This document shows positions 4,483 through 21,830 of a DNA stretch of 38,557 nt, piece after piece. Position 1 is the stretch's first letter, and each line of letters starts with the position of its first letter. Below the pieces are notes generated by a model, which ran no database searches, was not told the origin of the DNA, and saw nothing but the letters and a program-made list of their open reading frames with translations. A program made the position numbers and the translations under genes. The DNA comes from Candidatus Shapirobacteria bacterium (GTDB lineage: Bacteria > Patescibacteriota > Microgenomatia > UBA12405 > UBA6130), in assembly GCA_027039485.1 (NCBI GenBank), contig JALWDZ010000013.1, positions 1-38,557 of the forward strand. The letters are read 5' to 3'.

Positions 4483-4557
4483 TGGCTCCGGCGGGAGGAT
4501 TCGAACCTCCAACCTCGGACTTAACAGGTCCTCGCGCTACCGTTGCGCCACGCCGGA
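4483..4557 (-). tRNA. tRNA-Asn (GTT)
   Basis: Full cloverleaf: TCCGGCG acceptor/CGCCGGA, anticodon loop CTGTTAA, T-loop TTCGAAT, encoded GCCA 3' end. Confidence 0.95.
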
Positions 4558-4797
4558 AAGCTGCTTTAAAAACTCTCTTCCTCGGTAACTTTTTAACTCT
4601 TTCTCCCGTTTTAACGCCTCACTGCGTGTTAAAAATTCCTCCTTATATATAAGCTCCCATTTTCCGCTAAATTTTGCTGTAAAACTTTTTTTAAATGTTC
4701 TCTGATTATGTAATTTTAATCTTTGTTCTATATCGCACGTCTGGCCAATATATATTTTATTATACTCTCGATTAATGATAGCGTAAACAAAAAACAT
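4537..4797 (-). CDS. GIY-YIG endonuclease domain protein
   Basis: MFFVYAIINREYNKIYIGQTCDIEQRLKLHN...; last residues LSGVAQR* are encoded by the tRNA-Asn 5' part. Confidence 0.9.
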   Translation of the reverse strand: MFFVYAIINREYNKIYIGQTCDIEQRLKLHNQRTFKKSFTAKFSGKWELIYKEEFLTRSEALKREKELKSYRGREFLKQLSGVAQR

Positions 4798-4805
4798 GTT
4801 TTTGC

Positions 4806-4852
4806 TCCTCGCGCACCTCCGCCGGCTGGCGGAGCGCCACGCCGGAAAGCTG
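4806..4852 (-). pseudogene. Partial tRNA-Asn 5' fragment interrupted by 16-bp palindrome
   Basis: tcctcgcgc-acc-[tccgccggctggcgga]-gcgccacgccggaaagctg versus tRNA tcctcgcgctaccgttgcgccacgccggaaagctg (4529-4563). Confidence 0.88.
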
Positions 4853-5024
4853 TCTAATTATAGCAAGAGATGGGAAATGGTCAAAATAAAACACCAAATT
4901 CCAAATCACAAGCACCAAATCACAACCCTGCCCCGACGTCACGTCGGGGCAATACCAAAATCCTAAATATTCAGAGCTTAGAACTTAGAACTTGGAACTC
5001 AGTAAGAAGAAGATTAAACAATGT

Positions 5025-21053: not shown

Positions 21054-21105
21054 TATAATAAGCTACCGGAGAGGTGCCGGAGCGGACGAACGGGCACGAC
21101 CCGAA
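21054..21105 (+). pseudogene. tRNA-Ser-like 5' fragment preceded by TATAAT
   Basis: tataataagctacc-ggagaggtgccggagcggacgaacgggcacgac; acceptor GGAGAGG and D-arm present, no matching anticodon/T-arm follows. Confidence 0.65.
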
Positions 21106-21164
21106 GGGTACCCGTTGGGTCCTGGAGAGCGAGCTAGAGAGCAAACTGAAAAGTGAGAAAATAA

Positions 21165-21251
21165 GGAGAGGTGGCAGAGTGGCCGAATGCGCGGCTTTGG
21201 AGAAGCCGTATAGTCGCAAGACTATCGTGGGTTCGAATCCCACCCTCTCCG
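21165..21251 (+). tRNA. tRNA-Ser (GGA)
   Basis: GGAGAGG/CCTCTCC acceptor, anticodon loop TTGGAGA, long variable arm tagtcgcaagacta, T-loop TTCGAAT. Confidence 0.95.
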
Positions 21252-21404
21252 CCTTCGCCAAGGCTTCGGCGTGATAAATCCGCCTTCGCTAAAGCTACGG
21301 CGTGATAAATTCGCCATAAACATAAAACTACGGTGGAATAAATCCGCTTGTGCCTCTATATTCTCTGCTATTGATGGATCCTGGCCGGGCAATTTGTTAT
21401 CTTT

Positions 21405-21653
21405 ATGAAAATGTATTACGTGTACATTTTAAAGAAAAAAGGAGAATCTCGCTTCTACACTGGTTCTACTAACAACCTTAAACGTCGTTTAAAAGAGCAT
21501 GCTAAAAGCAAGCCTGATTATTTCCTCTATGCATACTTTGCCTTTCTAACGGCCGCTATGGCTCGCAAGTTCGAGAAATATCTAAAAACCGGATCTGGAC
21601 GTGCTTTCGCCAAAAAACATTTTCATATCGCGTCTAAGCCCTCCAGTCACTAG
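21405..21653 (+). CDS. GIY-YIG endonuclease domain protein
   Basis: MYYVYILKKKGESRFYTGSTNNLKRRLKEH... Confidence 0.93.
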   Translation: MKMYYVYILKKKGESRFYTGSTNNLKRRLKEHAKSKPDYFLYAYFAFLTAAMARKFEKYLKTGSGRAFAKKHFHIASKPSSH

Positions 21654-21660
21654 AGTGAAT

Positions 21661-21812
21661 TTTAGATCGACGAAGTTAAACGGAGTCGGTCTTTAGATCG
21701 ACGAAGTTAAACGGAGTCGGTCTTTAGATCGACGAAGTTAAACGGAGTCGGTCTTTAGATCGACGAAGTTAAACGGAGTCGGTCTTTAGATCGACGAAGT
21801 TAAACGGAGTCG
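21661..21812 (+). repeat. 31-bp perfect tandem repeat, 5 units (last truncated)
   Basis: tttagatcgacgaagttaaacggagtcggtc at 21661, 21692, 21723, 21754, 21785. Confidence 0.98.
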
Positions 21813-21814
21813 TC

Positions 21815-21830
21815 CCCACCCTCTCCGCCT
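21815..21830 (+). pseudogene. Duplicated 3' end of tRNA-Ser
   Basis: cccaccctctccgcct identical to 21239-21254; similarity continues into the following palindromic GCC..CGGCGTGATAAATCCGCC repeats. Confidence 0.8.

Follow-up and report, generated by a model that had tools for sequence, protein, structure and literature searches.

Small GIY-YIG nuclease genes at rebuilt tRNA genes in the Candidate Phyla Radiation: probable minimal mobile elements with one tRNA target per lineage

SegB of phage T4, a free-standing GIY-YIG homing endonuclease of T-even phages, is encoded between tRNA genes (PMC2988022). Mobile ORFs (mORFs) in the mitochondria of Allomyces and Glomus insert together with a replacement gene end (PMC3630166), and rRNA genes of the Candidate Phyla Radiation (CPR) carry non-intron GIY-YIG insertions, in a report whose authors set GIY-YIG apart from homing spread and leave tRNA unmentioned (PMC11270868). 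The closest analogues of the locus described here are T4 SegB and the fungal mitochondrial mobile ORFs. As with SegB, the nuclease gene lies outside an intron in a tRNA region and, as SegB does, would promote its own inheritance (PMC2988022); unlike that phage gene, which sits between tRNA genes, the present ORF interrupts a tRNA gene of the chromosome, with a hairpin-bearing relic left behind, and encodes a bare domain of ~80 aa. As with mORFs, an endonuclease ORF inside a gene brings a replacement end and the native end becomes a displaced duplicate (PMC3630166), but mORFs occupy the 3' ends of mitochondrial protein genes and are mostly LAGLIDADG, whereas the present targets are bacterial tRNA genes, often entered at the 5' end, with a hairpin in the displaced copy. 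The CPR rRNA insertions are similar in being small, non-intron GIY-YIG ORFs in structural RNA genes of the same radiation (PMC11270868).

The closest solved structures by sequence are UPF0213/YhbQ-like single-domain GIY-YIG proteins of the same size (PDB 1ywl, 1zg2). Unlike the window-type units, UPF0213/YhbQ-like genes were mostly not linked to tRNAs in our samples. REP elements with RAYT transposases combine dispersed hairpins with a small nuclease gene, the RAYTs being HUH enzymes. Dispersed hairpins and a small nuclease gene recur here, with a GIY-YIG rather than an HUH nuclease, whose tie to the dispersed palindromes would be hypothetical. Our search of the literature on GIY-YIG with CPR and tRNA returned no report of this arrangement; subscription journals lay mostly outside that search, so novelty is unproven.

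The window, the whole 38,557-nucleotide stretch of DNA that was analysed, comes from a 695-kb genome in 27 contigs whose host, an ultra-small bacterium, falls within the CPR. Its tRNA-Asn unit comprises the following features.

4857-4862, minus strand: TATAAT, a -10-like box seen in the sequence, now 5' of the relic and presumed to be the native tRNA promoter
4852-4806, minus strand: the whole tRNA-Asn 5' relic, between TATAAT and the GIY-YIG ORF
4834-4852, minus strand: left piece of the relic, a 6-nt leader plus tRNA-Asn positions 1-13 (4846-4834), an exact 19-bp copy of 4545-4563
4818-4833, minus strand: 16-bp palindrome TCCGCCAGCCGGCGGA in place of D-loop bases, between tRNA positions 13 and 17
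4806-4817, minus strand: right piece of the relic, GGTGCGCGAGGA, seen in the sequence to run from D-arm to anticodon stem (tRNA positions ~17-29, one base missing)
4537-4797, minus strand: GIY-YIG nuclease ORF of 86 aa (Pfam PF01541, E = 2.6e-16)
4483-4557, minus strand: intact tRNA-Asn(GTT) of 75 nt (ARAGORN), the regenerated copy, 100% identical to the unoccupied tRNA-Asn of the same-genus genome G002

An earlier note, made from the letters alone, had read the minus-strand order as TATAAT, tRNA-Asn fragment, GIY-YIG ORF and intact tRNA-Asn(GTT), and the sequence, Pfam and ARAGORN bear this out. It had also placed the -10 box 5' of the fragment and not of the intact tRNA, and the stop codon of the ORF inside the tRNA D-loop; both statements hold, the TAG lying at 4537-4539 with the last codons also inside the intact tRNA. 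The 19-bp exact repeat that it saw in fragment and intact gene, CAGCTTTCCGGCGTGGCGC, is present at 4834-4852 and 4545-4563; these are the only two sites in the 695-kb genome, even with two mismatches allowed, so that the repeat is neither common elsewhere, which the note would have counted against its reading, nor a product of chance. The partial tRNA-Asn copy is real, but it is not the plain 5' half that had been described, for the palindrome TCCGCCAGCCGGCGGA splits it. What the note had missed is the relic's hairpin, how broad the family is, and the existence of mirror-image (3'-regenerating) versions. In empty relatives the -10-like box lies directly 5' of the tRNA. Since the presumed native promoter has remained with the relic, and ORF and tRNA are usually only 0-20 bp apart, joint transcription of relic, ORF and tRNA is plausible. 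ARAGORN reads the tRNA-Asn as an uninterrupted 75 nt with the ORF outside it, which rules out a group I intron carrying the ORF; the GIY-YIG ORF is the only one among the listed ORFs in the interval from relic to tRNA, which rules out an integrase-type tRNA-targeting element.

The encoded protein belongs to the GIY-YIG nuclease superfamily, with the GIY...YIG motif and the catalytic Arg and Glu present, and catalytic-type residues Y5, Y16, G18, R26 and E65 are invariant across 22 homologues. Third codon positions are the most divergent in close pairs of nuclease ORFs, as expected for a protein under selection. Pfam recognised no DNA-binding domain beyond GIY-YIG in the 86-aa ORF; such a domain is usual, not universal, in homing endonucleases, and this result counts against the explanation that we favour below. 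A comparison of the protein with phage records gave no match.

GIY-YIG genes occupy five places in the window genome: the tRNA-Asn unit, a unit at tRNA-Ser elsewhere in the window, and three loci designated L001, L003 and L004. At L001 (G000:C20), a unit at tRNA-Leu(CAA) repeats the pattern, with the palindromic filler CCTGCCTGCGAAGGCAGG in the D-loop of the relic. The tRNA-Ser unit is made up as follows.

21068-21134, plus strand: degenerate tRNA-Ser-like 5' relic, read by eye
21165-21253, plus strand: intact tRNA-Ser(GGA) (ARAGORN)
21405-21653, plus strand: GIY-YIG ORF
21815-21829, plus strand: duplicated 15-bp 3' end of tRNA-Ser, 3' of the ORF (sequence)

Within this unit (21068-21829), a tandem repeat of ~30 bp separates the ORF from the 3' relic. 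The ORF of L003 (1501-1737) lies inside 23S rRNA, between both strands of an extended hairpin stem. At L004 an intergenic GIY-YIG ORF that lies apart from RNA genes is flanked by the short inverted repeats CCCTGTTAAATAA and TTATTTAACAGGG.

Comparison of related genomes revealed the same sites with and without the insertion. Within one genus, the tRNA-Thr(GGT) gene next to an epimerase gene holds the insertion in G050 and lacks it in G067, G089, G223 and G194; at this site G138 has a weaker GIY-YIG match without evident relic. In the same genus, the tRNA-Leu(CAG) gene next to a methyltransferase gene carries an insertion in G089 and none in G067, G223, G050 and G118. At both sites, the leader that adjoins the tRNA in the closest empty genome adjoins the relic in the occupied genome. 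A weaker case, with no clear relic visible, is tRNA-Glu(CTC) beside greA, occupied in G138 and empty in G118. The identical tRNA-Asn of G002, a genome of the same genus as the window, has no insertion and is immediately preceded by TATAAT, although the genes around it differ. Together with this unoccupied tRNA-Asn, the Thr and Leu sites support the proposal of the earlier note that a GIY-YIG unit was inserted into the tRNA gene and its 5' part regenerated; relatives with neither partial copy nor empty site would have spoken against that proposal, and most relatives have partial copies while empty sites exist. Such occupied and empty alleles in relatives of one genus, at the tRNA-Thr and tRNA-Leu loci, are one mark of a homing gene. 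As to co-conversion, 10 of 73 positions separate the tRNA-Thr of G050 from the one in its closest relative, but two other relatives have the very same tRNA-Thr as G050. The intact tRNA-Thr is identical in the occupied G050 and in G089 and G223, where the site is empty, an observation that counts against the explanation favoured here, which does not account for the avoidance of self-cutting where the intact tRNA equals that of empty genomes.

To gauge how widespread the arrangement is, we collected the top-scoring homologues, by similarity to the window protein, in 238 genomes of the class and counted tRNA linkage at the 113 loci that had 300 bp or more of sequence on each side. All counts given here refer to loci and not to separate insertion events; the genomes are mostly metagenome assemblies, and the tRNAs are predictions. 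A tRNA on the same strand lay within 60 bp at 65 of the 113 loci and within 250 bp at 83, with no opposite-strand case, and tRNA density was 3.27/kb within 100 bp of the nuclease versus 0.12/kb at 600-900 bp. A relic search with one ungapped-leaning scoring scheme found part of the same tRNA repeated on the far side of the ORF at 54 of 89 tested loci (z > 3 versus other tRNAs). Where the tRNA is downstream these relics mostly begin at tRNA position 1, and where it is upstream they extend to the tRNA 3' end; some tRNA-linked loci have no detectable relic, which again counts against the favoured explanation. These same-tRNA relics, together with the two independent examples in the window genome (tRNA-Leu(CAA) at L001 and tRNA-Ser), argue that the arrangement at tRNA-Asn is not due to chance.

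In a second set of 80 further loci, a same-strand tRNA lay within 60 bp at 35 of 42 complete loci of CPR or unnamed bacteria, some of them in genomes already present in the first set. Among Bacteroidota and related phyla, 19 of 26 loci had a tRNA no more than 250 bp away, in most cases an upstream tRNA-Met or tRNA-Val, and several loci of this type carry a hairpin-bearing 3' relic downstream and are thus mirror-image versions. The group of nucleases at tRNA-Asn was found across many CPR lineages. The same kind of insertion is present in dozens of related bacteria and is not a one-off. A phylum sample ranked by Pfam consisted mostly of UPF0213-like genes and had a same-strand tRNA within 60 bp in only 11 of 70 cases, so that tRNA linkage is a property of some GIY-YIG proteins and not of all; this, with the ranking of the main sample by similarity to the window protein, is a further point against the favoured explanation. 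Among the loci of the class, absence of a nearby tRNA clusters on the nuclease tree (10 changes versus 22.7 when shuffled).

A nuclease tree was built from 185 domains, 134 rows of which could be labelled with the amino-acid identity of the tRNA. Identity required 36 changes versus 80.5 with shuffled labels (shuffled minimum 75). For the same 82 rows, tRNA identity required 33 changes versus 55.6 shuffled and host family 55 versus 62.0. As far as sequence comparison can tell, nuclease clades track the tRNA rather than the host, and the units have spread without following host families; target-dedicated lineages discordant with the host tree are a second mark of a homing gene.

A strong stem was present on 85% of relic sides versus 13% of controls, which were single flanking stretches (78 testable regions). 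The hairpin replaces or splits tRNA arms at a site that varies by tRNA, for example positions 23-30 in tRNA-Lys, 26-42 in one tRNA-Gly, 11-23 in one tRNA-Gln and some tRNA-Asn, 52-64 in tRNA-Pro, and an insertion at 7/8 in tRNA-Thr and, by eye, in tRNA-Leu. In the window genome the TCCGCC palindrome is dispersed, also away from tRNAs, TCCGCCNNNNGGCGGA having 39 copies genome-wide versus 1 for a reversed control pattern. Further copies of TCCGCCNNNNGGCGGA stand in the window at 62, 4398, 14267, 23061, 33668 and 37987, several nested in CACCTCNGAGGTG-type palindromes. At L028, tandem units consist of a tRNA-Lys start, a hairpin and a TATAAT-containing spacer. A role of the hairpin as a folding insulator gained no support from ViennaRNA: the relic captures the 3' strand of the tRNA whether its hairpin is kept or removed, acceptor-stem probability falling to ~0.01 and 0.004 versus 0.69 without the relic. 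On our reading these figures are probably dominated by the energy model, in which large multiloops carry no cost for their length.

We put at roughly three in four the probability that the window unit belongs to a family of minimal mobile elements that carry a single-domain GIY-YIG nuclease as their sole gene and in which each lineage is dedicated to one tRNA gene that it invades and rebuilds. The sequences themselves show the insertion relative to empty sites, the rebuilt tRNA, the constancy of the target, the hairpin and a spread independent of host families. The nuclease would cut an unoccupied copy of its tRNA gene, and the break would be repaired from an occupied copy, which would bring in the unit of ~0.3 kb. 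The start of the host tRNA would be pushed upstream as a relic that retains the native promoter, while the end of the unit would supply a fresh tRNA start and so restore a complete tRNA. By making the relic a non-tRNA and shortening its homology to the intact copy, the G+C-rich hairpin would, we infer, stabilise the insertion.

Several other readings of the same loci have to be weighed. Relic bases match the local tRNA, so that local duplication explains them as well as homing does, a point against the favoured explanation and in favour of a tandem duplication of the tRNA that came first, with nuclease genes settling later in a spare copy that decayed. L045, which keeps a nearly full-length, hairpin-disrupted tRNA copy 5' of its ORF, is what such a history might leave; yet relics usually break off within the tRNA, adjacent to where the ORF starts, many families share one layout, and at the Thr and Leu sites that were compared the native leader has stayed with the relic; we judge this order of events unlikely. 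The strict dedication of clades to tRNAs and the conserved architecture of the relic, especially in the Asn group, would also suit a nuclease acting on tRNA itself, with the hairpin relic as a decoy or antitoxin-like RNA. We hold this to be quite improbable, because the characterised GIY-YIG relatives I-TevI and SLX1 act on DNA (a comparison by sequence similarity only) and because an element that invades DNA accounts better for the empty sites and for the rRNA or RNase P RNA neighbours. That nearly all the genomes are metagenome assemblies invites suspicion of an assembly or annotation artefact, a negligible prospect given that the ORF is conserved as a protein and the same arrangement is seen in many independent assemblies, among them those of cultured, non-pathogenic Bacteroidota such as strains of Draconibacterium or Marivirga.

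A further possibility, which we entertain tentatively, reverses the roles of gene and relic: the hairpin-marked relic would itself be a small mobile unit with tRNA genes as its targets, mobilised by the autonomous GIY-YIG gene in the manner of REP/RAYT or MITE/transposase pairs. Solo forms lacking the nuclease gene do occur at tRNA-Leu(TAA) (L326), tRNA-Gly(TCC) (L332) and tRNA-Lys (L230), and the CCCGCCTCGAC hairpin, rare in several genomes, is located there exactly in the relic. The solo forms may, however, be deletion products, the TCCGCC palindrome is dispersed away from tRNAs too, and across 21 genomes palindrome copy number did not track the number of nuclease genes significantly (Spearman 0.34, P = 0.13). 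Slightly more doubtful is the broader proposition that a hairpin-swapped tRNA start and a GIY-YIG nuclease together constitute a new class of transposable element, in which the hairpin serves as the recognised end and is mobilised by the nuclease, autonomous forms carry the ORF, non-autonomous forms consist of the hairpin only, and the targets are structured RNA genes (tRNA, rRNA and RNase P RNA).

The homing of units dedicated to single tRNA genes would account for the many small GIY-YIG genes beside tRNAs in these bacteria, which are probably mobile elements with one tRNA gene per lineage. It would also represent a route into an essential non-coding gene without splicing, in which the target is rebuilt, and the family would offer a natural series of one nuclease fold matched to many DNA targets. 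For annotation there is a warning, in that ORFs ending in tRNAs and hairpin-bearing tRNA fragments are not necessarily errors.

GIY-YIG ORFs were also found at other RNA genes. By Rfam, those of L003 and L047 fall within 23S and 16S rRNA matches, respectively; no gene duplication was seen in either case, and both look to be of the CPR rRNA insertion kind (PMC11270868). The ORFs of L277 and L298 lie directly beside RNase P RNA (Rfam) and, by eye, seem to be enclosed by the two strands of a long stem close to the 5' end of that RNA. Three tRNA-Asn loci (L010, L015 and L018) also have a group I intron in the tRNA (Rfam), separate from the ORF, and the intron region of L018 includes a 124-aa ORF that is HNH-like by eye, without a Pfam match. 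At L269 and L286, GIY-YIG ORFs stand in the neighbourhood of tmRNA genes.
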